Source of the DNA: Antedon mediterranea
Taxonomy: Eukaryota > Echinodermata > Crinoidea > Comatulida > Antedonidae
Assembly (NCBI RefSeq): GCF_964355755.1
Contig: NC_092670.1
Location: 8,307,201 to 8,371,200, forward strand
Direction of reading: 5' to 3'
Length of the DNA stretch: 64,000 bases
Positions 1,429 to 54,198 of the stretch are shown here, in pieces. Both the position numbers and the translations under genes were made by a program. Position 1 is the first letter of the stretch. Every line of letters begins with the position of its first letter. The notes below the pieces were generated by a model, which worked only from the letters and a program-made list of their open reading frames with translations, was not told the DNA's origin and ran no database searches.

Positions 1429-4400
1429 ATGAAATATAAATGTGAACACTGTGGAGTTAAGTTGGAATTCAGTGACTTGAAAGAGCATTTAGGATTATAC
1501 AATCATTCTAAAGAAATAAAATGTGAGCTCTGTGAAGATACAATTGACAAGTGTAAGCTACATAACCAGACACCATATGAATGTGATCATGAGGAGGAAG
1601 GAAATCGGAATTTGAAAAAACATTTGAGGACAAACACAGGAGAGACACCATATGAATGTGAGCATGAGAAGGAAGGAAATAGGAATTTGAAAAAACATTT
1701 GAGCACAAACATAGGAGAGACACCATATGAATGTGAGCATGAGAAGGAAGGAAATAGGAATTTGAAAAAACATTTGAGCACAAACACAGGAGAGACACCA
1801 TATGAATGTGAACATGAGAAGGAAGGAAATCGGAATTTGAAAAAACATTTGAGCACAAACATAGGAGAGACACCATATGAATGTGAGCATGAGAAGGAAG
1901 GAAATAGGAATTTGAAAAAACATTTGAGCACAAACACAGGAGAGACACCATATGAATGTGAGCATGAGAAGGAAGGAAATAGGAATTTGAAAAAACATTT
2001 GAGCACAAACATAGGAGAGACACCATATGAATGTGAGCATGAGAAGGAAGGAAATAGGAATTTGAAAAAACATTTGAGCACAAACATAGGAGAGACACCA
2101 TATGAATGTGAGCATGAGAATGAAGGAAATCGGAATTTGAAAAAACATTTGAGCACAAACATAGGAGAGACACCATATGAATGTGAGCATGAGAAGGAAG
2201 GAAATAGGAATTTGAAAAAACATTTGAGCACAAACACAGGAGAGACACCATATGAATGTGAACATGAGAAGGAAGGAAATCGGAATTTGAAAAAACATTT
2301 TAGCACAAACACAGGAGAGACACCATATGAATGTGAGCATGAGAAGGAAGGAAATAGGAATTTGAAAAAACATTTGAGCACAAAAACAGGAGAGACACCA
2401 TATGAATGTGAGTATGAGAAGGGAGGAAATCAGACTTTGAAAAAACATTTGAGGACAAACACAGGGGAGACAACATATGAATGTGAGCATGAGAAGGAAG
2501 GAAATCGGAATTTGAAAAAACATTTGAGGACAAACACAGGAGAGACACCATGTGAATGTGAGCATGAGAAGGAAGGAAATTGGATTTTGAAAACACATTT
2601 GAGCACAAAAAACAGGAGAGACACCATATGAATGTGAACATTGTGGGAAGAAATTTAAACAAAGCTGGAATTTGAAAATGCATTTGAGAAAACACACAAG
2701 AGCGACACCATATGAAAATTGTGGTATGAAATTTAAACAAAATTTAAAGATTCTATTGAGAAAATACACAGGAGAGACACCATATGATTGTGAACATGGT
2801 GGTAAGAAATTTAAACAAAATGGAAATTGGAAAATACATTTGAGAAAACACAAAAGAGAGGCACCATATGAATGTGAACATTGTGGAATGAAATTTACAC
2901 GGAATGCTACTTTGTCAGCACATTTAAAAATACATAACACACCTTATGAATGTGAACATTGTGGGAAGAAATTTAAATGGAAGCTGACTTTGGAAACACA
3001 TTTGAGAACACACAAAAGAGAGGCATCATATGAATGTGAAAATTGTGGGAAGAAATTTAGAACAAATGTAAATTTAAAAATGCATTTAAAAATACACACA
3101 AGAGAGACACCATATGAATGTGAACATTGTGGTAAGAAATTTAAACAATATGGAAATTTGAAAATGCATTTGAGAACACACACAAGAGAGACACCATATG
3201 AACGTGAACATTGTGGTAAGAAATTTAAACAAAGTGGAAGTTTGAAGATACATTTGAGAACACACACAGGAGAGACACCATATGAATGTGAACATTGTGG
3301 TAAGAAATTTAAACAAAATGGAAGTTTGAAGATACATTTGAGAACACACACAGGAGAGACACCATATGAATGTGAACATTGTGGTAAGAAATTTAAACAA
3401 AGTGGAAATTTGAAAATGCATTTGAGAACACACACAGGAGAGACACCATATGAATGTGCACATTGTGGTAAGAAATTTAAACACAATGGGGACTTGAAAA
3501 GACATTTGAGAATACACACAGGAGAGGCACCATATGAATGTCAACATTGTGGACAGAAATTTAAACTAAGCTGGAATTTGAAAATTCATTTGAGAACACA
3601 CACAGGAGAGACACCATATGAATGTGAACATTGTGGTAAGAAATTTAAACGAAGTGGAAGTTTGAAGATACATTTGAGAACACACACAGGAGAGACACCA
3701 TATGAATGTCAACATTGTGGACAGAAATTTAAACAAATTGGAAATTTGAAAATGCATTTGAGAACACACACAGGAGAGACACCATATGAATGTCAACATT
3801 GTGAACAGAAATTTAAACAAAATGGAAATTTGAAAATACATTTGATAACACACACAGGAAAGACACCATATGAATGTGAACATTGTGGAAAGACATTTAA
3901 ACAAAATGGAAATTTGAAAAAGCATTTGAGAATACACACAGGAGAGACACCATATGAATGTCAACATTGTGGACAGAAATTTAAACTAAGCTGGAATTTG
4001 AAGATACATTTGAGAACACACACAGGAGAGACACCATATGAATGTCAACATTGTGGACAGAAATTTAAACTAAGCTGGAATTTGAAAATTCATTTGAGAA
4101 CACACACAGGAGAGACACCATATGAATGTCAACATTGTGGACAGAAATTTAAACAAAATGGAAATTTGAAAATGCATTTTAGAACACACACAGGAGAGAC
4201 ACCATATGAATGTGCACATTGTGGTAAGAAATTTAAACACAATGGGGACTTGAAAAGACATTTGAGAATACACACAAGAGAGGCACCATATGAATGTGAA
4301 CATTGTGGTAAGAAATTTAAACAAAATGGGGTTTTGAAAAGACATTTGAGAACACACACTAGAAAGGCACCATATGAATGTGAACATTGTGGAACGAAAT

Positions 4401-4462
4401 TTACACGGAATGCTACTTTGAATGCACATTTAAAAACACATAACACACCTTATGAAATTTAA
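1429..4462 (+). pseudogene. C2H2 zinc-finger gene, type I copy A, single frameshift
   Basis: Probable nuclear sequence-specific DNA-binding protein; its target cannot be read from sequence. The ATG sits 15 nt after a splice acceptor, so this is the terminal coding exon. Order: N-terminal family finger (residues 5-28, CEHCG...DLKEHLGLYNH), a CELC linker, 14 tandem 25-residue degenerate units (1570-2615), then 22 finger units of about 28 residues joined by TGETPYEC linkers, ending THNTPYEI. Two early fingers are defective (YENCGMKF, CEHGG) and one has CEH changed to REH. The frame is open to 2631 and again from before 2672 to 4462. The break is an A-run (2607-2612, six A) that is five A long in the paralogue (46,044-46,048). 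With about 600 clean codons after it, the lesion is either very recent or a homopolymer consensus error. No KRAB, BTB or ZAD domain is visible. Confidence 0.85.
1570..2615 (+). repeat. 75-bp coding minisatellite, 14 degenerate zinc fingers
   Basis: Fourteen head-to-tail units of 25 codons, consensus TPYECEHEKEGNRNLKKHL followed by STNTGE. Compared with a real finger ([21 protein letters not shown]) each unit keeps the first Cys and first His, but lacks the second Cys, the core Phe and the second His and is three residues shorter. The units therefore should not bind zinc in the normal way. STNTGE and STNIGE variants alternate, which suggests expansion by two-unit steps. The same block has one unit at 16.4 kb and nine at 45.4 kb. 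Confidence 0.9.
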
Positions 4463-7655: not shown

Positions 7656-8735
7656 ATGAATGAATACGACTTCAACAAAGAAGAATTTAACAGTGTAAAT
7701 ACCAACATGAAATGCAAATGTGAAAACTGTGGATATGAATTTGAGTTCAGAGATTTGAAAGAACATTTAGAAATACACGTACATAGTAAAGAGTTTAAAT
7801 GTGAAAACTTTGAGGATTTTCTGCTAAATGACCAAACACCATATTATGACTTTGAACATTGTAGGCCTAGAATTGAAGAAAGTAAACATTTTGGACTACC
7901 CATTGCCAATGAATTTGAACATTGTCGAAATGACGAAAGTGAGAATTCGGGAAGCACTGCCGTAGAAGCTTCGTATGAATTTGAACATTGTCGAAATGAA
8001 GAAAATGAGAATTTGCGAAACACTTCTGAGGAAACTTCGTAGAATGAATCTAATGAAAATTGTGGAACTGAAGAAAGTGGTGATTTGAGAATTCACACCT
8101 CCGAGGAAACTTTGTTTGGTTGTGAAAATTGTGGGAAACAATTTAATAAAAGTGATGATTTAAAAAAACATTTTAAAATTCACACAAGAAAGACACAACA
8201 TGAATGTGAACCTTGTGGGAAGACATTTAAACCGAATACGAATTTGAAGGAGAAGCACCATTTGAATGTGAACACTGTGGGAAGAATTTTAAAGAAAGGG
8301 GGAATTTAAGCAAATATTTCCGGATGCATACAGGAGAGAAACCATATGAATGTGAACATTGCGGTAAGAAATTTAAACAAAATGGAAGTTTGAAGATACA
8401 CTTGAGAAAACACACAGGAGTGACACCATATGAATGTGAACATTGTGGTAAGAAATTTAAACACAATGGAAATTTGAAGATACATTTGAGAACACACACA
8501 GGAGAGACACCATATGAATGTGAACATTGTGGACAGAAATTTAAACACAATGGAAGTTTGAAGATACATTTGAGAACAGACACAGGAGAGACACCATATG
8601 AATGTGACCATTGTGGACAGAAATTTAAACAAAATGAACATTTGAAAAAGCATTTGAGAACACACACAGGAGAGACACCATATGGATGTGAACATTGTGG
8701 TAAGAAATTTAAACTAAGGTGGAATTTGAAAATGC
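7656..8735 (+). pseudogene. C2H2 zinc-finger gene, type II copy A, chimeric pseudogene
   Basis: A splice acceptor (tttttttatag, ending 7646) precedes ATG 7656. N-terminal family finger CENCGYEFEFRDLKEHLEIHVH, then an acidic linker with YEFEHCRNDESEN-type half-finger repeats. The frame stops at TAG 8040-8042 where copies B and C read a Tyr codon. A 22-nt deletion near 8,249 fuses two fingers out of frame. Up to about 8,340 the fingers match type II, but from there to 8,735 they are type I (CGKKFKQNGSLKIH, CGQKFKHNGSLKIH). Recombination in the shared GEKPYE linker therefore swapped in a type I tail. The finger array is cut at atgcat (8,735), after which unrelated repeat DNA follows. Not expected to encode a functional protein. 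Confidence 0.85.
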
Positions 8736-16257: not shown

Positions 16258-17328
16258 ATGAAATATAAATGTGAACACTGTGGAGTTAAGTTGGAATTCA
16301 GTGACTTGAAAGAACATTTAGGATTACACAATCATTCTAAAGAAATAAAATGTGAGCTCTGTGACGATACAATTGACAAGTGTAACCTACATAACCAGAC
16401 ACCATATGAATGTGAGCATGAGGAGAAAGGAAATCAGAATTTGAAAAAAACATTTTTGAGGACAAACACAGGAGAGACACCATATGAATGTCAACATTGT
16501 GGTAAGAAATTTAAACAAAATGGAAATTTGAAGATACATTTGAGAATACACACAAGAGAGACACCATATGAATGTGAACATTGTGGTAAGAAATTTAAAC
16601 AAAATGGAAATTTGAAGATACATTTGAGAACACACACAGGAGAGACACCATATGAATGTGAACAATGTGGAACGAAATTTAAACACAATAGAAGTTTGAA
16701 GATACATTTGAGAACACACACTAGAGAGGCACCATACGAATGTCAACATTGTGGTAAGAAATTTAAACAAAATGAGAATTTTAAGATACATTTGAGAACA
16801 CACACTACAGAGGCACCATATGAATGTGAACATTGTGGTAAGAAATTTAAACAAAATTGGGATTTGAAAAGACATTTGAGAGTACACACAAGAGAGACAC
16901 CATATGAATGTGTATATTGTGGTAAGAAATTTAAACTAAATGGAAATTTGAAGAGACATTTGAGAATAAACACAGGAGAGACACCATATGAATGTGAACA
17001 TTGTGGTAAGAAATTTAAACAAAATGGAAATTTGAAGATACATTTGAGAAAACACACAGGAGAGACACCATATGAATGTGAACATTGTGGTAAGAAATTT
17101 AAACTAAATGGAAATTTGAAGATGCATTTGAAAACACACACAGGAGGGACACCATATGAATGTTAACATTGTGGGAAGAAATTTAAACAGAATGGAAATT
17201 TGAAGATACATTTGAGAACACACACAATAGAGACACCATATGAATGTGAACATTGTGGAACGAAATTTACACGGAATGCTACTTTGAAAGCACATTTAAA
17301 AACACATAACACACCTTATGAAATTTAA
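16258..17328 (+). pseudogene. C2H2 zinc-finger gene, type I copy B, single nonsense codon
   Basis: Same architecture as copies A and C but short: N-terminal family finger, one 25-residue-type degenerate unit (with an extra residue, KKTFLRTN), then ten 28-residue fingers ending THNTPYEI at 17,328. The frame is continuous over all 357 codons except TAA at 17,164-17,166, where paralogues have CAA (CQHCG). The lesion removes the last two fingers. If translated as is, it gives 302 residues with eight fingers. Finger helices vary at contact positions (QNGNLKI, HNRSLKI, QNWDLKR, LNGNLKR). It could still be expressed as a truncated protein. Confidence 0.85.
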
Positions 17329-22676: not shown

Positions 22677-24258
22677 TATCGCAAAAATAATAGCAGTTTG
22701 TACAGTAGGTCAGTGGTGTAGGAAAGAGTGGTATCGCACAAAATAATAGCAGTTTGTACAGTAGGTCAGTGGTGTAGGAAAGAGTGGTATCGCACAAAAT
22801 AATAGCAGTTTGTACAGTAGGTCAGTGGTGTAGGAAAGAGTGGTATCGCACAAAATAATAGCAGTTTGTACAGTAGGTCAGTGGTGTAGGAAAGAGTGGT
22901 ATCGCACAAAATAATAGCAGTTTGTACAGTAGGTCAGTGGTGTAGGAAAGAGTGGTATCGCACAAAATAATAGCATTTTGTACAGTAGGTCAGTGGTGTA
23001 GGAAAGAGTGGTATCGCACAAAATAATAGCATTTTGTACAGTAGGTCAGTGGTGTAGGAAAGAGTGGTATCGCACAAAATAATAGCATTTTGTACAGTAG
23101 GTCAGTGGTGTAGGAAAGAGTGGTATCGCACAAAATAATAGCAGTTTGTACAGTAGGTCAGTGGTGTAGGAAAGAGTGGTATCGCACAAAATAATAGCAG
23201 TTTGTACAGTAGGTCAGTGGTGTAGGAAAGAGTGGTATCGCACAAAATAATAGCAGTTTGTACAGTAGGTCAGTGGTGTAGGAAAGAGTGGTATCGCACA
23301 AAATAATAGCAGTTTGTACAGTAGGTCAGTGGTGTAGGAAAGAGTGGTATCGCACAAAATAATAGCAGTTTGTACAGTAGGTCAGTGGTGTAGGAAAGAG
23401 TGGTATCGCACAAAATAATAGCAGTTTGTACAAGTAGGTCAGTGGTGTAGGAAAGAGTGGTATCGCACAAAATAATAGCAGTTTGTACAGTAGGTCAGTG
23501 GTGTAGGAAAGAGTGGTATCGCACAAAATAATAGCAGTTTGTACAGTAGGTCAGTGGTGTAGGAAAGAGTGGTATCGCACAAAATAATAGCAGTTTGTAC
23601 AGTAGGTCAGTGGTGTAGGAAAGAGTGGTATCGCACAAAATAATAGCAGTTTGTACAGTAGGTCAGTGGTGTAGGAAAGAGTGGTATCGCACAAAATAAT
23701 AGCAGTTTGTACAGTAGGTCAGTGGTGTAGGAAAGAGTGGTATCGCACAAAATAATAGCAGTTTGTACAGTAGGTCAGTGGTGTAGGAAAGAGTGGTATC
23801 GCACAAAATAATAGCAGTTTGTACAGTAGGTCAGTGGTGTAGGAAAGAGTGATATCGCACAAAATAATAGCAGTTTGTACAGTAGGTCAGTGGTGTAGGA
23901 AAGAGTGGTATCGCACAAAATAATAGCAGTTTGTACAGTAGGTCAGTGGTGTAGGAAAGAGTGGTATCGCACAAAATAATAGCAGTTTGTACAAGTAGGT
24001 CAGTGGTGTAGGAAAGAGTGGTATCGCACAAAATAATAGCAGTTTGTACAGTAGGTCAGTGGTGTAGGAAAGAGTGGTATCGCACAAAATAATAGCAGTT
24101 TGTACAGTAGGTCAGTGGTGTAGGAAAGAGTGGTATCGCACAAAATAATAGCAGTTTGTACAGTAGGTCAGTGGTGTAGGAAAGAGTGGTATCGCACAAA
24201 ATAATAGCAGTTTGTACAGTAGGTCAGTGGTGTAGGAAAGAGTGGTATCGCACAAAAT
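22677..24258. repeat. 56-bp satellite, about 28 copies
   Basis: Unit gtggtatcgcacaaaataat, agcagtttgtacagtagg, tcagtggtgtaggaaaga (three consecutive pieces of one 56-bp period). Copies are almost identical. Three adjacent units carry gcattttg in place of gcagtttg (about 22,974-23,100). A one-base insertion (tacaagtagg) occurs at 23,431 and again at 23,992, exactly 561 bp apart, so a ten-unit block was duplicated. Unit C has just over one copy at the matching place (55,509-55,572). Confidence 0.95.
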
Positions 24259-25855: not shown

Positions 25856-26388
25856 TTAGTTTAATAAAAAAACGAAATAAATGATTTAAAATGATATGAG
25901 TATCTTTGCGTTGATTCAATCTACTTAGAAAATGCAGTCAACACAACGGCATCATCAAAATGCGTGCATACTTTCTATAAAACAAATAATACTAATCCCC
26001 TATATTGTGCTAATCACAAACAAATCAAAGCAACAATATTGAACAAAAAGAAAGTATGTCTTTGTGATGACGCTTTGATTTCATTCATTATAGAAACAAT
26101 ACATCATAATTATAGGATAATTGGTCATTTGTCTTTGAGGCGCTTTGATTTAATGCATATAATAAAACACATAAGACAAAACATAATGTTCGGTTGCTTT
26201 TCGTAAACCAAAAATTCGGAAGATGTGTAAATCAAAGGTAATTTTGTGTCAATAGTAAAAAGTGTCCTTTGCGAAAGGCACACAATAGTTGCGCAAATAA
26301 TGGTCTACTCTCTGTATTAAATGGGGGGGGGGGGTGCTAGTACGTACATGTTCACTTTCAAACTGATTTATCTTCGACTGCAACAAAA

Positions 26389-26676
26389 ATGAACGACTGT
26401 ATCCAGTGTAGAGAACCTGTTAATCATCGCCAGGAGGCTGTTTTTTGCGAGGAGTGCCAACATCGAACTTGCGGTACTGGTATAACACGTGCTGCCTATC
26501 TTGCTGGTATCCGCGACGGCTACATTGATTGGACGTGTAATAAATGTGTGCGACCTGTTCCAGAGGAACCTGCAGCCCAACTAGATGTCTTTGTTGGAGA
26601 CCTTGGAGCATTTGAAGAGCCTGCAGTTGTTGAGGAACAACACTTACCAAACCCATATCGAGTACCAAATCAATAA
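26389..26676 (+). CDS. Small protein with PHD-like C4HC3 zinc cluster
   Basis: 95 codons from ATG 26,389 (tcaacaaaaATGAACG context is favourable) to TAA 26,674. Metal-ligand pattern: C4-x2-C7 (DCIQCREP), C20-x2-C23, H25-x2-C28 (CEECQHRTCGTGITR), C50-x2-C53 (DWTCNKC). This zinc module resembles the N-terminal cysteine domain seen in some MULE/FLYWCH-type transposon-linked proteins of invertebrates; that link is from memory of the family and is uncertain. The C-terminal 40 residues are acidic and Pro/Glu-rich. AATAAA follows six bases after the stop. The duplicated segment at 63,406 begins exactly at this stop, so the open frame itself is not duplicated. It may be a lone exon or a domesticated transposon piece. 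Confidence 0.55.
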   Translation: MNDCIQCREPVNHRQEAVFCEECQHRTCGTGITRAAYLAGIRDGYIDWTCNKCVRPVPEEPAAQLDVFVGDLGAFEEPAVVEEQHLPNPYRVPNQ

Positions 26677-28577: not shown

Positions 28578-30779
28578 ATGGAGTTCAAATGTGAACACTG
28601 TGGAGATAAATTTGAGTTAAGTGATTTGAAGGAGCATTTAGGAATACATGTCCGTTTTAAAGAGTTAAAATGTGAAAACACAAACGATGTTGAACCACAA
28701 GATGAGACACCCTATGAGAAAGAAGGTGAGAATTTTGAAATAAACACTGCCATAGAAACTTCATATAAATGTGAACATTGTGAGAAGCAATTTGAACAAA
28801 AAGAAGATTTGAAACAACATTTGCAAATACACAAAGAAGAGAAACCATATGAATGTGAACAATGTAATAAAAGATTTAAACAGAATGCTAATTTCAAAAA
28901 ACATTTGAGAATTCACACAGGAGAAACACCATATGAATGTGAACATTGTAGGAAGAAATTTAAAGAAAGGGGGAATTTGAATAAACATTTGAGAGTACAC
29001 ACAGGAGAGAAACCATATGAATGTGAACATTGTGGAAAGAAATTTAGCTGCAGTCAGAATTTGAAAAAACATTTGAGAGTACACACAGGAGAAACACCAT
29101 ATGAATGTGAACATTGTGGGAAGAAATTTGCACAAAGCGGGGAAATGAAAGTTCATGTCAGAATTCACACAGGAGAAAAACCATATGAATGTGAACAATG
29201 TGGGAAGAAATTCGGAGCTAGTGGTTCTTTAAAAAAACATCTGAGAGTACATAGTGGAGAAAAACCATTTGAATGTAAATATTGTTCAAAGAAATTTAGC
29301 TCAAAAAAATATTTAATAGTACACACACGGTTACACACAGGAGAGCAACTATATGAATGTGAATATTGTGGGAAGAAAATTAACAATAAAGACAACTGGA
29401 GAAAACATGTGATGCTACACACAGGAGAGAGACCATATGAATGTGAGCATTGTGGAAAGAAATTTAGAGGTAATAGAAATTTAAAATTACATTTAAGAAT
29501 TCACACTGGAGAGAAACCATTTGAATGTGAATATTGTGGGAAGAAATTTAACGATAAAGGACAATGGAAAAAACATGTGATGCTACACACAGGAGAGAGA
29601 CCATATGGATGTGAGCATTGTGGAAAGAAATTTAGAGGCAATAAAAATTTAAAATTGCATTTGAGAATTCACACTGGAGAGAAACCATTTGAATGTGAAC
29701 ATTGTGGTAAGAAATTCCAATATCGGGAGACCTTCAAAAAACATTTGAGAATACACACAGGAGAAACACCTTATGAATGTGAACATTGTGGGATGAAATT
29801 TAAAGGAGGAAATCAATTGGAAATACATTTGAGAATTCACAATACAATAGCGCCACCATCGCATAATTTGGAACAGAACAAAGGTAATGTAAATTTAAAA
29901 TCACCGTTGAAAATACTCAGAGCGACACCATCTGGATCTTATGGATGTGAACAAAAATGTATAAATAATTTTATAGCACACAAGAGAGAGACTGAATCTA
30001 AATGTGAACATTGTGGAATAAAATTCAAAACTATTGAATATTTAAAATCGCATTTGAGAATACACATAAAAAAGGAAATACCGTCTTATGAATGTGAACA
30101 GAAATGTATAACTAATTTTATAACATACAAGAAAGAGACACCATATGAAATGGATTGGAAAGAAGAGACACCATATGGAATGGAACATAAAAGAGAGACA
30201 CCATATGGAAAGAAACATAAAGAGAAGACACCATATGGAATGGAACATAAAGAAAATAGTACACCACATGAAATAGAACATAAAGGAGATATACCATATG
30301 AAATGGAACATAAAGGAGAGACACCATATGAAATGGAACATAAAGGAGATATACCATATGAAATGGAACATAAAGGAGATATACCATATGAAATGGAACA
30401 TAAAGGAGATATACCATATGAAATGGAATATAAAGGAGATATACCATATGAAATGGAACATAAAGGAGAGACACCATATGAAATGGAATATAAAGGAGAT
30501 ATACCATATGAAATGGAACATAAAGGAGAGACACCATATGAAATGGAATATAAAGGAGAGACACCATATGAAATGGAACATAAAGGAGAGACACCATATG
30601 AAATGGAATATAAAGGAGAGATACCATATGAATATGAACATACAGGAGACACATCATATGGAATGGAACATTTAATACACAGAACACAGATACCATATGA
30701 AATGGAACAATTAATAGGCATAGGCCTACACACAGGAGAAACACCATATGAGATGGGAACATTGTGGGATCGAATTTAA
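28578..30779 (+). CDS. C2H2 zinc-finger protein, type III copy A
   Basis: 733-residue predicted nuclear DNA-binding protein. ATG 28,578 follows the acceptor ttgaacatcag (28,576). Order: N-terminal family finger (residues 5-28, [22 protein letters not shown]), acidic linker, 13 consecutive C2H2 fingers (about residues 60-425), a separate finger ([20 protein letters not shown]), then about 18 decapeptide units of the type [20 protein letters not shown] (30,137-30,665). The units are linker sequence ([10 protein letters not shown]) without fingers. Fingers 8-9 and 10-11 are a duplicated two-finger module (NWRKHVMLH, then CGKKFRGN). The frame ends in TLWDRI. Just past the shift, the DNA still reads [11 protein letters not shown] in another frame, so the original C-terminus was longer. 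The exon is uninterrupted, and promoter-like modules lie at 27.3 and 27.9 kb. Confidence 0.9.
30137..30665 (+). repeat. 30-bp coding minisatellite of zinc-finger linker
   Basis: About 18 units, consensus gaaatggaacataaaggaga plus taccatat with tataccatat/gacaccatat variants. They encode alternating EMEHKG and EMEYKG with DIPY or ETPY. The match to the linker core GETPYECEH shows the origin, with Cys replaced by Met so that no zinc ligand remains. Confidence 0.9.
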
Positions 30780-34165: not shown

Positions 34166-35338
34166 ATGAAGTACAAATGTGAACACTGTGGAGATAAATT
34201 TGAGTTAAGTGATTTGAAGGAACATTTAGGAATACATGTGCATTTTAAAGAGTTAAAAGACTACGAGCATTTTCAACTACATGATCAAAAACGAAAAGAA
34301 ATTGAGAATTTGGAAATACACACCACCGAAGAAACTTCATTTGAACATTTTGGGAATAAAGAAAATGAGAATTTAGGAGTATGCACCGATGAAGAAACTT
34401 CGTATGAATGTGAAAATTGTGGAATGCAATTTAACAAAATTGATGTTTTAAATAAACATTTGAAAATACACACAAGCGAGACACCATATGAATGTGAACA
34501 TTGTGGAAAAAATTTTAAACAGAATGCTAATTTCAAAAAACATTTGAGAATTCACACAGGAGAAACACCATATGAATGTGAACATTGTAGGAAGAAATTT
34601 AAAGAAAGGGGGAATTTGAATAAACATTTGAGAGTACACACAGGAGAGAAACCATATGAATGTGAACATTGTGGAAAGAAATTTAGCTGCAGTCAGAATT
34701 TGAAAAAACATTTGAGAGTACACACAGGAGAAACACCATATGAATGTGAACATTGTGGAAGAAAATTTAAACAAAGTGGAAAATTAAAAGTACACGTTAG
34801 ATCTCACACGGGAGAGACGCCATTTGAATGTGAACAATGTGGTAAGAAATTCAAAGCTAATGCAAATTTGAAAGATCATTTTAGAGTACATACAGAAGAG
34901 ACGCCATATGAATGTATATTTTGTACAAAGAAATTTAAGTCTAATGGGTCTTTAAACTCACATTTGAAATTACACACAGGAAACTTACCATATGAATGTG
35001 AACAATGTGGGAGGAAATGTGCCTCTAATGGAATATTAAAAAAACATTTGAGAATTCACAGAGAAGAGAGACCATATGAATGTGAACATTGTGGGAAGAC
35101 ATTTAAAACAAATGAAGGATTAAAATCACATTTGAAAACACATGGAGAGCCACGGTATAAATGCGAATATTGTGGAGTGAAATACCAAGATAAAAGGTGC
35201 TTCCAAATGCATTTGGAAAGACACACAATAGGGAATGAATGTGAAGATTATATTATCAAATCCAATTGCAATGATATGTTTAACTTACGCACAGAAGAGA
35301 CATCGCATGGTAACATTTATAACTTGCATACATTTTAA
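34166..35338 (+). CDS. C2H2 zinc-finger protein, type III copy B
   Basis: 390 residues from ATG 34,166, chosen because [20 protein letters not shown] is the start shared by the family; upstream in-frame codons lack an ATG. An acceptor (tttttatttag) ends at 34,082. N-terminal family finger, acidic linker with [15 protein letters not shown] repeats, then ten C2H2 fingers (about residues 80-365). Finger 8 has the core Phe replaced by Cys (CGRKCASNG). The last finger is [21 protein letters not shown], followed by an acidic tail. Fingers 2-4 are the same at DNA level as those of copy A over about 245 bp, while neighbours differ, suggesting gene conversion. A 5'-truncated relative lies at 60,618. 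Probable nuclear DNA-binding protein; no effector domain visible. Confidence 0.9.
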
Positions 35339-44733: not shown

Positions 44734-45240
44734 TAGCGAAAGCCTAATAAAAATAGAAATCAATTTTAGAAAACAAAACTTTAAGTTTAAATTTTGCATA
44801 TTAATTGTATTTTGGAATGAAGTTATTGACATATTTTTAAAGTTGAAAGTAATATAAGTGCATTCTAGCTTTTAGATGAACGATAAGTAAAAAGTTTTGT
44901 TGCCTTGGAAACAATTCCAGGTGGGGAAAACTAAATCGTATCCTAATAGTATTAAAAGTCAATTTTTACTTCACACGCTGCATCTATTTGCTTTTGCTGT
45001 CTGGAATAATAATACAGTACTGTATTTAATAATGTATTATAAATAATTTGTAAACTATGGAAGTTTTCTTCCATAGTTATTTATAATTTTTTTAGCCTAC
45101 AAAAGTTTCATTCTTTTTGCCTTTTAGTTGTTTTTTATGGAAATATTATCTTGAAACAAATCTGTGAAAAAAAATTCTCAAACCATGAATAGTCTATTAT
45201 TATTAGTTAATTTATTTTCTTTCAGATTACAGAATACAGC
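44734..45240 (+). other. 5' flank and intron end of type I copy C
   Basis: Nearly identical to 880-1428. The acceptor tttattttctttcag ends at 45,225; 15 nt of exon precede the ATG. Confidence 0.5.
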
Positions 45241-48200
45241 ATGAAATATAAATGTGAACACTGTGGAGTTAAGTTGGAATTCAGTGACTTGAAAGAACAT
45301 TTAGGATTACACAATCATTCTAAAGAAATAAAATGTGAGCTCTGTGAAGATACAATTGACAAGTGTAAGCTACATAATCAGACACCATATGAATGTGATC
45401 ATGAGGAGGAAGGAAATCGGAATTTGAAAAAACATTTGAGCACAAACACAGGAGAGACACCATATGAATGTGAGCATGAGAAGGAAGGAAATCGGAATTT
45501 GAAAAAACATTTGAGCACAAACACAGGAGAGACACCATATGAATGTGAGCATGAGAAGGAAGGAATTCGGAATTTCAAAAAACATTTGAGCACAAACACA
45601 GGAGAGACACCATATGAATGTGAGCATGAGAAGGAAGGAAATAAGAATTTGAAAAAACATTTGAGCACAAACACAGGAGAGACACCATATGAATGTGAAC
45701 ATGAGAAGGAAGGAAATTGGATTTTGAAAAAACATTTGAGCACAAACACAGGAGAGACACCATATGAATGTGAACATGAGAAGGAAGGAAATTGGAATTT
45801 GAAAAAACATTTGAGCACAAACACAGGAGAGACACCATATGATTGTGAGTACGAGAAGGGAGGAAATCGGACTTTGAAAAAACATTTGAGCACAAACACA
45901 GGGGAGACAACATATGAATGTGAGCATGAGAAGGAAAGAAATCTGAATTTAAAAAAACATTTGAGCACAAACACAGGAGAGACACCATGTGAATGTGAGC
46001 ATGAGAAGGAAGGAAATTGGATTTTGAAAACACATTTGAGCACAAAAACAGGAGAGACACCATATGAATGTGAACATTGTGGGAAGAAATTTAAACAAAG
46101 CTGGAATTTGAAAATGCATTTGAGAAAACACACAAGAGCGACACCATATGAAAATTGTGGTATGAAATTTAATCAAAATTTAAAGATTCTATTGAGAAAA
46201 TACACAGGAGAGACACCATATGATTGTGAACATGGTGGTAAGAAATTTAAACAAAATGTGAATTGGAAAATACATTTGAGAAAACACAAAAGAGAGGCAC
46301 CATATGAATGTGAACATTGTGGAGTGAAATTTACACGGAATGCTACTTTGTCAGCACATTTAAAAACACATAACACACCTTATGAATGTGAACATTGTGG
46401 GAAGAAATTTAAATGGAAGCTTACTTTGGAAACACATTTGAGAACACACAAAAGAGAGGCATCATATGAATGTGAAAATTGTGGGAAGAAATTTAGAAAA
46501 AATGTAAATTTAAAAATGCATTTAAGAATACACACAAGAGAGACACCATATGAATGTGAACATTGTGGTAAGAAATTTAAACAATATGGAAATTTGAAAA
46601 TGCATTTGAGAACACACAAAATAGAGACACCATATGAACGTGAACATTGTGGTAAGAAATTTAAACAAAGTGGAAGTTTGAAGATACATTTGAGAACACA
46701 CACAGGAGAGACACCATATGAATGTGAACATTGTGGTAAGAAATTTAAACAAAGTGGAAGTTTGAAGATACATTTGAGAACACACACAGGAGAGACACCA
46801 TATGAATGTCAACATTGTGGACAGAAATTTAAACAAAATGGAAATTTGAAAATGCATTTGAGAACACACACAGGAAAGACACCATATGAATGTGAACATT
46901 GTGGTAAAAAATTTAAACAAAATGAACATTTGAAGATACATTTGAGAACACACGCAGGAGAGACACCATATGAATGTGAACATTGGGGTATGAAATTTAA
47001 ACAAAGTGGAAGTTTGAAGATACATTTGAGAACACACACAGGAGAGACACCATATGAATGTGAACATTGTGGTAAGAAATTTAAACAAAATGGACATTTG
47101 AAAATGCATTTGAAAACACACACAGGAGAGACACCATATGAATGTCAACATTGTGGACAGAAATTTAAACGAAATGAACATTTGAAAAGACATTTGAGAA
47201 CACACACAGGAGAGACACCATATGAATGTGAACATTGTGGTAAGAAATTTAAACAAAATGGAAATTTGACAATTCATTTGAGAACACACACAGGAGAGGC
47301 ACCATATGAATGTGCACATTGTGGTAAGAAATTTAAACACAGTGGGGACTTGAAAAAACATTTGAGAATACACACAGGAGAGGCACCATATGAATGTGAA
47401 CATTGTGGTAAGAAATTTAAACAAAATGGGGTTTTGAAAAGACATTTGAGAACACACACAAGAAAGGCACCATATGAATGTCAACATTGTGGACAGAAAT
47501 TTAAACAAAATGGAAATTTGAAAATGCATTTGAGAACACACACAGGAGAGACACCATATGAATGTGAACATTGTGGTAAGAAATTTAAACAAAGTGGAAG
47601 TTTGAAGATACATTTGAGAACACACACAGGTGAGACACCATATGAATGTCAACATTGTGGACAGAAATTTAAACAATATGGAAATTTGAAAATGCATTTG
47701 AGAACACACAAAATAGAGACACCATATGAACGTGAACATTGTGGTAAGAAATTTAAACAAAGTGGAAGTTTGAAGATACATTTGAGAACACACACAGGAG
47801 AGACACCATATGAATGTGAACATTGTGGTAAGAAATTTAAACAAAGTGGAAGTTTGAAGATACATTTGAGAACACACACAGGAGAGACACCATATGAATG
47901 TCAACATTGTGGACAGAAATTTAAACAAAATGGAAATTTGAAAATGCATTTGAGAACACACACAGGAAAGACACCATATGAATGTGAACATTGTGGTAAA
48001 AAATTTATACAAAATGAACATTTGAAGATACATTTGAGAACACACGCAGGAGAGACACCATATGAATGTGAACATTGTGGTATGAAATTTAAACAAAGTG
48101 GAAGTTTGAAGATACATTTGAGAACACACACAGGAGAGACACCATATGAATGTGAACAATGTGGTAAGAAATTTAAACAAAATGGACATTTGAAAATGCA

Positions 48201-49494
48201 TTTGAGAACACACACAGGAGAGACACCATATGAATGTCAACATTGTGGACAGAAATTTAAACGAAATGGACATTTGAAAAGACATTTGAGAACACACACA
48301 GGAGAGACACCATATGAATGTGAACATTGTGGTAAGAAATTTAAACAAAATGGAAATTTGAAAATACATTTGATAACACACACAGGAAAGACACCATATG
48401 AATGTGAACATTGTGGAAAGAAATTTAAACAAAATGGAAATTTGAAAAAGCATTTGAGAATACACACAGGAGAGACACCATATGAATGTGAACATTGTGG
48501 TAAAAAATTTAAACAAAATGAACATTTGAAGATACATTTGAGAACACACACAGGAGAGACACCATATGAATGTCAACATTGTGGACAGAAATTTAAACTA
48601 AACTGGAATTTGAAAATTCATTTGAGAACACACACAGGAGAGACACCATATGAATGTCAACATTGTGGACAGAAATTTAAACAAAATGGAAATTTGAAAA
48701 TTCATTTGAGAACACACACAGGAGAGACACCATATGAATGTGAACATTGTGGTAAAAAATTTAAACAAAATGAACATTTGAAGATACATTTGAGAACACA
48801 CACAGGAGAGACACCATATGAATGTCAACATTGTGGACAGAAATTTAAACAAAATAGAAATTTGAAAATTCATTTGAGAACACACACAGGAGAGACACCA
48901 TATGAATGTGAACATTGTGGTAAGAAATTTAAACAAAGTGGAAGTTTGAAGATACATTTGAGAACACACACAGGAGAGACACGGTATGAATGTCAACATT
49001 GTGGACAGAAATTTAAACAAAATGGACATTTGAAAATGCATTTGAGAACACACACAGGAGAGACACCATATGAATGTGAACATTGTGGTAAGAAATTTAA
49101 ACAAAATGGAAATTTGAAAATACATTTGATAACACACACAGGAGAGACACGGTATGAATGTGAACATTGTGGTAAGAAATTTAAACAAAATGGAAATTTG
49201 AAAATGCATTTGAGAACACACACAGGAGAGACACCATATGAATGTGCACATTGTGGTAAGAAATTTAAACACAATGGGGGCTTGAAAAGACATTTGAGAA
49301 TACACACAAGAGAGGCACCATATGAATGTGAACATTGTGGTAAGAAATTTAAACAAAATGGGGTTTTGAAAAGACATTTGAGAACACACACTAGAAAGGC
49401 ACCATATGAATGTGAACATTGTGGAACGAAATTTACACGGAATGCTACTTTGAATGCACATTTAAAAACACATAACACACCTTATGAAATTTAA
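45241..49494 (+). CDS. C2H2 zinc-finger protein, type I copy C, 41 finger units
   Basis: Intact 1,417-codon frame, a giant predicted DNA-binding protein. N-terminal family finger (residues 5-28), CELC linker, nine 25-residue degenerate units (45,382-46,056), then 41 finger units of about 28 residues. Units 2, 3, 8, 12 and 21 have lost a Cys ligand (for example CEHGG, REHCG, CEHWG); the other 36 look intact. Units 7-14 recur as units 20-27, exactly 1,092 bp (13 fingers) apart, so a block was duplicated internally. Variation concentrates at helix positions -1, 3 and 6 (QNGNLKI, QSGSLKI, QNEHLKI, HNGGLKR, LNWNLKI) on a nearly constant scaffold. It ends THNTPYEI. No KRAB/BTB/SCAN/ZAD domain. The start follows an acceptor, so a non-coding upstream exon is likely. 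Confidence 0.92.
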   Translation: MKYKCEHCGVKLEFSDLKEHLGLHNHSKEIKCELCEDTIDKCKLHNQTPYECDHEEEGNRNLKKHLSTNTGETPYECEHEKEGNRNLKKHLSTNTGETPYECEHEKEGIRNFKKHLSTNTGETPYECEHEKEGNKNLKKHLSTNTGETPYECEHEKEGNWILKKHLSTNTGETPYECEHEKEGNWNLKKHLSTNTGETPYDCEYEKGGNRTLKKHLSTNTGETTYECEHEKERNLNLKKHLSTNTGETPCECEHEKEGNWILKTHLSTKTGETPYECEHCGKKFKQSWNLKMHLRKHTRATPYENCGMKFNQNLKILLRKYTGETPYDCEHGGKKFKQNVNWKIHLRKHKREAPYECEHCGVKFTRNATLSAHLKTHNTPYECEHCGKKFKWKLTLETHLRTHKREASYECENCGKKFRKNVNLKMHLRIHTRETPYECEHCGKKFKQYGNLKMHLRTHKIETPYEREHCGKKFKQSGSLKIHLRTHTGETPYECEHCGKKFKQSGSLKIHLRTHTGETPYECQHCGQKFKQNGNLKMHLRTHTGKTPYECEHCGKKFKQNEHLKIHLRTHAGETPYECEHWGMKFKQSGSLKIHLRTHTGETPYECEHCGKKFKQNGHLKMHLKTHTGETPYECQHCGQKFKRNEHLKRHLRTHTGETPYECEHCGKKFKQNGNLTIHLRTHTGEAPYECAHCGKKFKHSGDLKKHLRIHTGEAPYECEHCGKKFKQNGVLKRHLRTHTRKAPYECQHCGQKFKQNGNLKMHLRTHTGETPYECEHCGKKFKQSGSLKIHLRTHTGETPYECQHCGQKFKQYGNLKMHLRTHKIETPYEREHCGKKFKQSGSLKIHLRTHTGETPYECEHCGKKFKQSGSLKIHLRTHTGETPYECQHCGQKFKQNGNLKMHLRTHTGKTPYECEHCGKKFIQNEHLKIHLRTHAGETPYECEHCGMKFKQSGSLKIHLRTHTGETPYECEQCGKKFKQNGHLKMHLRTHTGETPYECQHCGQKFKRNGHLKRHLRTHTGETPYECEHCGKKFKQNGNLKIHLITHTGKTPYECEHCGKKFKQNGNLKKHLRIHTGETPYECEHCGKKFKQNEHLKIHLRTHTGETPYECQHCGQKFKLNWNLKIHLRTHTGETPYECQHCGQKFKQNGNLKIHLRTHTGETPYECEHCGKKFKQNEHLKIHLRTHTGETPYECQHCGQKFKQNRNLKIHLRTHTGETPYECEHCGKKFKQSGSLKIHLRTHTGETRYECQHCGQKFKQNGHLKMHLRTHTGETPYECEHCGKKFKQNGNLKIHLITHTGETRYECEHCGKKFKQNGNLKMHLRTHTGETPYECAHCGKKFKHNGGLKRHLRIHTREAPYECEHCGKKFKQNGVLKRHLRTHTRKAPYECEHCGTKFTRNATLNAHLKTHNTPYEI
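45382..46056 (+). repeat. 75-bp coding minisatellite, 9 degenerate zinc fingers
   Basis: Nine 25-residue units in frame, consensus CEHEKEGNRNLKKHLSTNTGE. Compared with unit A, nearly all carry STNT, and internal variants differ (GIRNF, GNWIL, ERNLN). This points to independent expansion or homogenisation after the duplication. Confidence 0.9.
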
Positions 49495-52823: not shown

Positions 52824-54198
52824 ATGAATGAATACGACTTCAACAAAGAAGAATTTAACAGTGTAAATACCAACATGAAAGGCAAATGTGAACACTGTGG
52901 AGATGAATTTGAGTTCAGGGATTTAAAGGAACATTTAGGAATACACGTACATAGTAAAGAGTTTAAATGTGAAAATTCCGAGGATTTTCTGCTAAATGAC
53001 CAAACACCATATTATGTCTTTGAACATTGTAGGCCTAGAATTGAAGAAAGTAAACATTTTGGACTACCCATTGTCGAAAAAACTTCATATGAATTTGAAC
53101 ATTGTCGAAATGACGAAAGTGAGAATTCAAGTAACACTGCCGTAGAAGCTTCGTATGAATTAGAACATTGTCGAAATGAAGAAAATGAGAATTTGGGAAA
53201 CACTTCTGAAGAAACATCGTATACTGAATCTGAGGAAAATTGTGGAACTGAAGAAAGGGGTAATTTGGGAATTTACACTTTCGAAGAAACTTCGTTTGGT
53301 TGTGAAAATTGTGGGAAACAATTTAATAAAAGTGATGATTTAAAAAAACATTTTAAAATTCACACAAGAGAGACACAACATGAATGTGAACATTGTGGGA
53401 AGACATTTAAACAGAATGCGAATTTGAAAAAGCATTTGAGAATACACACAGGAGGAGCACCATTTGAATGTAAACACTGTGGGAAGAATTTTAAAGAAAG
53501 GGGGAATTTAAACAAGCATTTGCGGATGCATACAGGAGAGAAACCATATGATTGTGAATACTGTGGGAAGAAATTTAGATCTAGTGTAAATTTGACAAAA
53601 CATTTGAGAGTACACACAGGAGAGAAGCCATATGAATGTGAACAGTGTAAAAGGAAATTTAAACACAGTGGGCAATTAAAAATACATTTTAGAACTCACA
53701 CAGGGGAGACACCGTATGGATGTGAACATTGTGGAAAGAAATTTAAACAGAGAGTGATTTTGAGAGAACATTTGAGAATACACACAGGAGAGAAACCATA
53801 TGAATGTATATTTTGCGCGAAGAACTTTAGAACTAGTAGTTATTTAAATGAGATTACACACAGGATGCAAATCGTATGAATGTGAATATTGTGGACAGAA
53901 ATTTATCACTAATGGGACTTTAAAAAAACATTTGAGAATTCACACCGGAGAGACACCTTATGAATGTGAGCATTGTGGAAAGAAATTTAAACATAATGGA
54001 TATTTAAAATTACATTTGAGAATACACACGGGAGAGAAACCATATAAATGTGAACAATGTGGAATACAATTTCAATGGGATAAAACCTTCAAAAGGCATC
54101 TAAAAACACACACACACAGACACTCTTTAAATGAAAACACTGTGCTATCATCTTTAAATTCAATTACATTATTACCAATCAATCAATTACAAAATTAG
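52824..54198 (+). pseudogene. C2H2 zinc-finger gene, type II copy C, one frameshift
   Basis: Best preserved type II copy. An acceptor (tttttttatag) ends at 52,815; ATG 52,824. N-terminal family finger (MKGKCEHCGDEFEFRDLKEH), linker with FEHCRNDESEN and LEHCRNEENEN repeats, then seven fingers in frame to FRTSSYLN. There, 8 nt (atacattt, present in copy B at 21,642) are missing, and the frame ends at TGA 53,879. The last three fingers and the LPINQLQN terminus remain open in another frame (53,848-54,198). As it stands it would encode a protein of about 351 residues with six and a half array fingers, which might still be made. Confidence 0.85.

Follow-up and report, generated by a model that had tools for sequence, protein, structure and literature searches.

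Decayed C2H2 zinc fingers amplified as an in-frame coding repeat in a zinc-finger gene cluster of Antedon mediterranea

The window analysed here, a stretch of 64,000 nucleotides at positions 8307201-8371200 of contig C1, contains clustered C2H2 zinc-finger genes whose open frames are long. Three of these genes carry a repeat unit of 75 bp, or 25 amino acids, in 14, 1 and 9 copies (Table 1). The same copy numbers, which an earlier note on this DNA had given, were obtained by a DNA scan blind to reading frame. TRF places the two period-75 arrays at 1568-2641 (14.3 copies, 95% matches) and 45380-46077 (9.3 copies). The fingers directly after the arrays are damaged (2705-2860 and 46141-46296; TPYENCGMKF...LLRKY, DCEHGGKK), in a pattern that looks as if decay grows toward the N-terminal end. 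Elsewhere in the window, a satellite of 56 bp (22677-24258; 28 copies, 99% matches) lies between genes, and an open frame at 26341-26676 contains a Cys-rich segment (DCIQCREPVNHRQEAVFCEECQHRTC) with no Pfam match at 0.01. An Rfam scan of the window returned no match.

Table 1. Features of the window (positions count from its first base).
Feature	Position	Strand	Remarks
Start of coding sequence, with N-terminal finger and worn second finger (KCELCEDTIDKCKLHNQ)	1429..1569	+	
14 tandem decayed-finger units of 75 bp	1570..2619	+	TRF, DNA scan
Run of six A, five in three paralogues	2607..2612	+	shifts the frame relative to the fingers that follow
Open frame of C2H2 fingers after the 14-unit array	2603..4462	+	different frame
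N-terminus of 16-kb paralogue	16258..16398	+	
Single decayed unit, 78 bp	16399..16476	+	+1 A and +2 T relative to unit of L015, net in frame
N-terminus of 45-kb paralogue	45241..45381	+	
9 tandem decayed-finger units	45382..46056	+	in frame with downstream fingers; TRF, DNA scan
Finger array of 45-kb paralogue	46057..49494	+	same frame as units; 1427-aa stop-to-stop frame 45211-49494
10-residue linker-like repeat, C-terminal part of 28.5-kb gene	30134..30671	+	
66-bp decayed-finger repeat (SYELEHCRNEENEN...) of sister gene, at matching position	53075..53222	+	also 7909-8045

The unit has the consensus TPYECEHEKEGNRNLKKHLSTNTGE, where the working fingers have a consensus of 28 residues, and its origin from a C2H2 finger, judged by sequence similarity, is secure. 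Aligned with the finger DNA consensus of the same family, it is identical at 64 of 75 bases, with 9 bases deleted; the alignment scores 93.9, and the maximum among 1000 shuffles was 31.4. A profile built from the window units finds C2H2 chains in the PDB, the best being CTCF (5t0u, 5.5e-16), and the linker TGETPY is retained as in working fingers. What is missing relative to a C2H2 finger is the second Cys (Cys2), the core Phe, the second His (His2) and those nine bases, just as the earlier note had described in reporting the loss of these residues and of three residues of length.

Ligand loss is nearly uniform among the 165 clean units. This set derives from 170 units by removal of the out-of-frame unit of locus L013, the last unit of the 14-unit window copy (which contains a frameshift) and three units of 26 residues that had been truncated to 25 (L014, L015, L018); the single unit at 16.4 kb, likewise of 26 residues, was missed by the motif and stands outside the set. 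None of the clean units has a His at the His2 position or a Phe at unit positions 9-12, and two have any second Cys, so that the Cys-x2-Cys / His-x3-5-His ligand set of a PF00096 finger is not complete. Correspondingly, PF00096 has no match in the 411-residue open frame of the 14-unit copy (limit 0.01) or in two slices of the decayed array (limit 1); a control slice of real fingers matches at 1.2e-29. The linker-centred model PF13465 matches the 411-residue frame at 71 bits (cut-off 40) and the two array slices at 25 and 32 bits, under the cut-off. The same frame exceeds the cut-offs of PF12392 (29.5 bits, cut-off 22.1) and PF08308 (21.4 bits, cut-off 20.8), but no single stretch passes for either model, and both scores were taken as sums over the repeat. 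Judged by their missing ligands, the units would not bind zinc in the manner of a finger.

The first ligands of each pair persist (Cys1 in 163 and His1 in 162 of the 165 clean units), and Cys5, His7 and His18 occur together in 149. These three residues (C-x-H-x10-H) might bind zinc in a different way, within one unit or between neighbours, but such a new metal site is extremely unlikely. Among fingers of the parent type, 282 of 303 already have His7 as an ordinary non-ligand residue, so that no new role is needed; with three non-synonymous changes, it varies at 0.60 per opportunity, more than the 0.46 found on average. Nor is a fold predicted. AlphaFold was run on a decayed four-unit block and a four-finger control, with 16 window rows each. 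The control reached a best pLDDT of 87.5 (71-86 in the other models) and formed four helices, whereas the decayed block reached 56.4 (31-36 in the other four) and formed strands only, without a helix. In this prediction the decayed block does not look like a finger. Such a structure prediction had been proposed in the earlier note; for the decayed block it is of low confidence, which is no proof of disorder or of an absent beta-beta-alpha fold, and the models contain no zinc.

The unit is not confined to the window. At least 13 genes in a single C1 cluster carry it, as does one gene on contig 8 (C8). A whole-genome unit search gave 205 matches (best 150 of 1437 candidates scored), and those listed at 84% identity or more fall either between 8.09 and 8.51 Mb of C1 or in the one C8 gene; the remaining matches were interpreted as ordinary fingers or stretches of mixed character. 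Searching by pattern yielded 249 matches, compared with 46 in a reversed control. Among the matches listed, which lack some known units of L020, L022 and L023, the 52 exact ones all come from the C1 cluster or from the C8 gene; another two, with a single mismatch, lie on C3 and C9. Besides the window, 12 regions around strong unit matches were taken for reading. By DNA scan, the copies number 23 in L013, 1 in L014, 2 in L015, 10 in L016, 18 in L017, 1 in L018, 22 in L019, 28 in L020, 21 in L022, 17 in L023 and 4 in L024, the C8 gene; L021 has none. Across the genes read, a gene thus holds 0, 1, 2, 4, 9, 10, 14, 17, 18, 21, 22, 23 or 28 units, with at least nine in nine C1 genes, and L013, L017, L019, L020 and L022 carry additional unit blocks within the finger array. 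Near position 2684 of L024, downstream of the open frame and outside its count of four, lies one more decayed unit with an extra A.

The genes with decayed units belong to a wider family. A single N-terminal finger (for example at window positions 28578-28700 and 34166-34300) marks a large group of zinc-finger genes; as a query it gave up to 108 matches on nine contigs (best 150 of 1222 candidates scored), the weakest of which may be ordinary fingers. This finger shows weak similarity, under cut-off, to zf_UBZ and other zinc models, and Pfam scans of proteins from the family gave no KRAB match. Eighteen further members were added to the family table; 34 starts fit the N-terminal motif, including 16 of those 18, and the motif missed L029, L043, L015 and the 7.6-kb gene. 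Of the 34 tabulated members, 31 have a canonical finger in the frame read, and the first one starts anywhere from residue 31 to residue 626: at residue 31-32 in L031, L032 and L033, and at residue 44 to 626 in the other 28, whose second and third elements are variably worn. For L013 and for two window loci, at 1.4 kb and 20.7 kb, the frame read shows no canonical finger. Judged from within the family, the canonical state would be ancestral to the worn state.

The units have the build of a coding minisatellite: their length is a multiple of three, they stand in tandem, and they lie inside an open frame, with copy number differing between paralogues of the one genome examined. An open array alone proves little, because any stop-free 75-bp consensus stays open when repeated, and this one is open in four of its six frames. 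The frames might then be a by-product of the consensus and the genes pseudogenes carrying dying sequence. The frameshifts in the 14-unit window copy and in L013 fit such decay, as does a second decayed-finger repeat, of 22 residues, which a sister subfamily carries after its N-terminal finger and ahead of its array; of the 18 matches to this repeat in the genome, at 14 loci by position, 5 have an in-frame stop, which in four is a TAG in related copies. The 75-bp units differ from this sister repeat in the very respect that the earlier note had named as a sign of dying sequence, the gain of stops: 0 of the 165 clean units in this genome has one in the sense frame, while the three antisense frames that the consensus leaves open contain stops in 16, 29 and 6 of 165. 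The 10 distinct antisense stop variants correspond to about 4.7 expected in the sense frame by opportunity, for which P(0)=0.009.

Indels point in the same direction. The spacing between successive units is 75 bp in 148 of 150 cases, with one of 78 and one of 79. On spanning-tree edges below 3.5% divergence, flanking DNA of the same paralogues shows 105 substitutions beside 44 indels, of which 29 break the frame. The arrays have two net frame breaks, in L013 and in the window copy at 2607-2612, or four if the compensated pair (+1, +2) at 16.4 kb is counted; relative to the 98 substitutions on the tree, or to the 68 unique changes, they are rarer than in the flanks (Fisher p 3e-6 to 0.0025; the further L024 unit beyond the open frame is excluded), although part of this contrast may be mutational, since sequence make-up differs. 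In eight genes (L016, L017, L019, L020, L022, L023, the 45-kb gene and L024), an open frame of 471-1684 aa extends from the N-terminus across the array and on into many fingers, and changes in the working fingers concentrate at DNA-contact positions (2 synonymous versus 58 non-synonymous tree steps at helix positions -1, 1, 2, 3 and 6). As an account of the whole set, the pseudogene reading is rejected on the sense-only absence of stops and the depletion of frame-breaking indels; it may apply to the 14-unit window copy and L013, and dying sequence as the general explanation is very unlikely. On the evidence of the sequence, selection appears to act on the open frame.

The 14-unit copy of the window has six A's in the run near the end of its array, compared with five in the 45-kb copy, L016 and L023. 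Because of the sixth A, the fingers that follow, though open, are in another frame. The open frame of the array itself stops at 2629-2631. This copy would encode repeats without fingers, or be a pseudogene, or reflect an assembly slip. The earlier note's statement that the block is kept in frame accordingly holds inside the array and fails at its 3ʹ end in this copy, where the note missed the frameshift.

Amino acids within the units appear to be hardly constrained. Unique changes in the 165 units comprise 19 synonymous and 49 non-synonymous (omega 0.82, interval 0.48-1.48), and a spanning tree with edges of at most three changes gives 25 and 73 (omega 0.93, 0.59-1.53); the dN/dS comparison across units that the earlier note had proposed thus finds amino-acid changes no rarer than expected, with an interval that includes moderate constraint. 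The 303 working fingers of the same loci found by motif give 24 and 167 on the tree (omega 2.01, 1.30-3.22) and 23 and 99 as unique changes (omega 1.15, 0.72-1.89). The contrast between decayed and working fingers (tree p 0.008; unique changes Fisher p 0.20, not significant) is only suggestive because exchange between units makes trees approximate, a point also raised for Prdm9 in the cited part of PMC3890296. A near-neutral rate for the decayed units is the safer statement. Changes are unevenly distributed: codons have 0 to 11 non-synonymous tree steps each, and in 169 units Tyr3, Cys5, Leu15 and His18 change at 0.29 per opportunity (5 changes) versus 0.49 at other sites (42), both comparisons being descriptive.

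The relationships among units are compatible with exchange. Divergence is 6.4% within genes and 7.0% between genes, and homogenisation within a gene is not evident; either units have therefore moved from gene to gene, or the genes themselves are of recent origin. Duplicates have a common order of unit variants, as in L016 and the 45-kb gene, which are one unit apart.

These data bear on the idea, raised in the earlier note, that the block is selected as a spacer or a new acidic/basic domain. Under this idea, the protein would profit from the length of the block or from its acidic and basic halves, for example because the block keeps the N-terminal finger apart from the DNA-bound array. Such selection would agree with the nine C1 genes that have nine or more units, with the further blocks inside five finger arrays, and with the retention of Cys5, His7 and His18 in most units. 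Paralogues, however, have nearly the same N-terminus even where they go on to 0 units (L021), 1 (16.4 kb, L014, L018) or 2 (L015); net charge per unit runs from -3 to +3 (169 units, before cleaning), omega is not significantly below 1, and the predicted models show no fold. With copy number ranging from 0 to 28 as well, a conserved domain is unsupported, and selection for a particular length or charge is unlikely. The note's other proposal, neutral expansion while tolerated, is the favoured reading, and a spacer tolerant of its own length is compatible with the evidence.

Decay followed by amplification may have happened more than once in this family. In addition to the 22-residue repeat of the sister subfamily, the 28.5-kb gene has, after its fingers, a coding repeat of 30 bp (10 residues, about 18 copies) that resembles a finger linker; strong matches occur in six further C1 genes, with an in-frame stop in none of the matches. 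A broader proposal would join these observations: decayed fingers and linkers of 25, 22 and 10 residues would repeatedly become length-tunable segments, and the frameshifted 14-unit copy would encode a protein made of repeats alone that has its own function, such as competing with the full-length paralogues. Taken as a whole, this proposal is very doubtful. If true, dead fingers would be raw material for amplified segments between or after working domains.

Known systems offer partial parallels. The Prdm9 array, as described in the cited part of PMC3890296, is likewise a tandem in-frame finger-derived repeat with copy-number turnover, and its changes concentrate at DNA-contact positions as in the working fingers here. 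However, Prdm9 units are working fingers, whereas the 75-bp remnant lacks Cys2, Phe and His2 and changes at a near-neutral rate. KRAB zinc-finger clusters, according to the cited passages of PMC2865497, contain fingers without a hallmark Cys or His within their arrays; in ZNF252, complete and degenerate fingers stand in a row beyond the stop codon. The genes here resemble them in being clustered and in having degenerate fingers within arrays. They differ in their N-terminus, a single finger without a KRAB match, and in that those passages describe no single degenerate finger multiplied, as here 9-28 times in nine C1 genes. In the cited part of PMC9647903, the conserved linker DNA between fingers is considered a possible substrate for finger rearrangement in KRAB-Zfp clusters, a suggestion relevant to the TGETPY linker of the decayed unit; a decayed-unit array like the present one goes unmentioned in that part. 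A literature search over titles and abstract openings, mostly of open papers and thus a weak negative, found no description of an amplified non-zinc-binding finger unit.

Probably, then, dead C2H2 fingers have been amplified between the N-terminal finger and the DNA-binding array and are kept open as a tolerated in-frame spacer. One finger at an early position would have lost Cys2, Phe, His2 and nine bases, the difference that the alignment shows. This decayed finger would then have multiplied by unequal exchange or slippage between near-identical linkers, the process that presumably multiplies working fingers as well; such a mechanism is suggested because the structure is tandem, unit order is common to duplicates and copy number varies. 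By ligand loss and structure prediction, the units would no longer fold or touch DNA. The block appears to share an open frame, putatively within a single exon, with the working fingers that follow it, and because it precedes them in this frame, stops and frameshifts would be removed by selection. Amino acids within the block would be hardly under selection, and the block would therefore grow and shrink as tolerated, probably as a flexible spacer, a behaviour that the sequence suggests.

On this reading, the genes document a route from a folded domain to a long, apparently unstructured, in-frame linker. Within the same genes, working fingers that change at DNA-contact positions stand beside dead fingers that are equally tandem and near-neutral. 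The dead fingers and the working fingers would thus form a natural control that separates repeat mechanics from selection in zinc-finger evolution.
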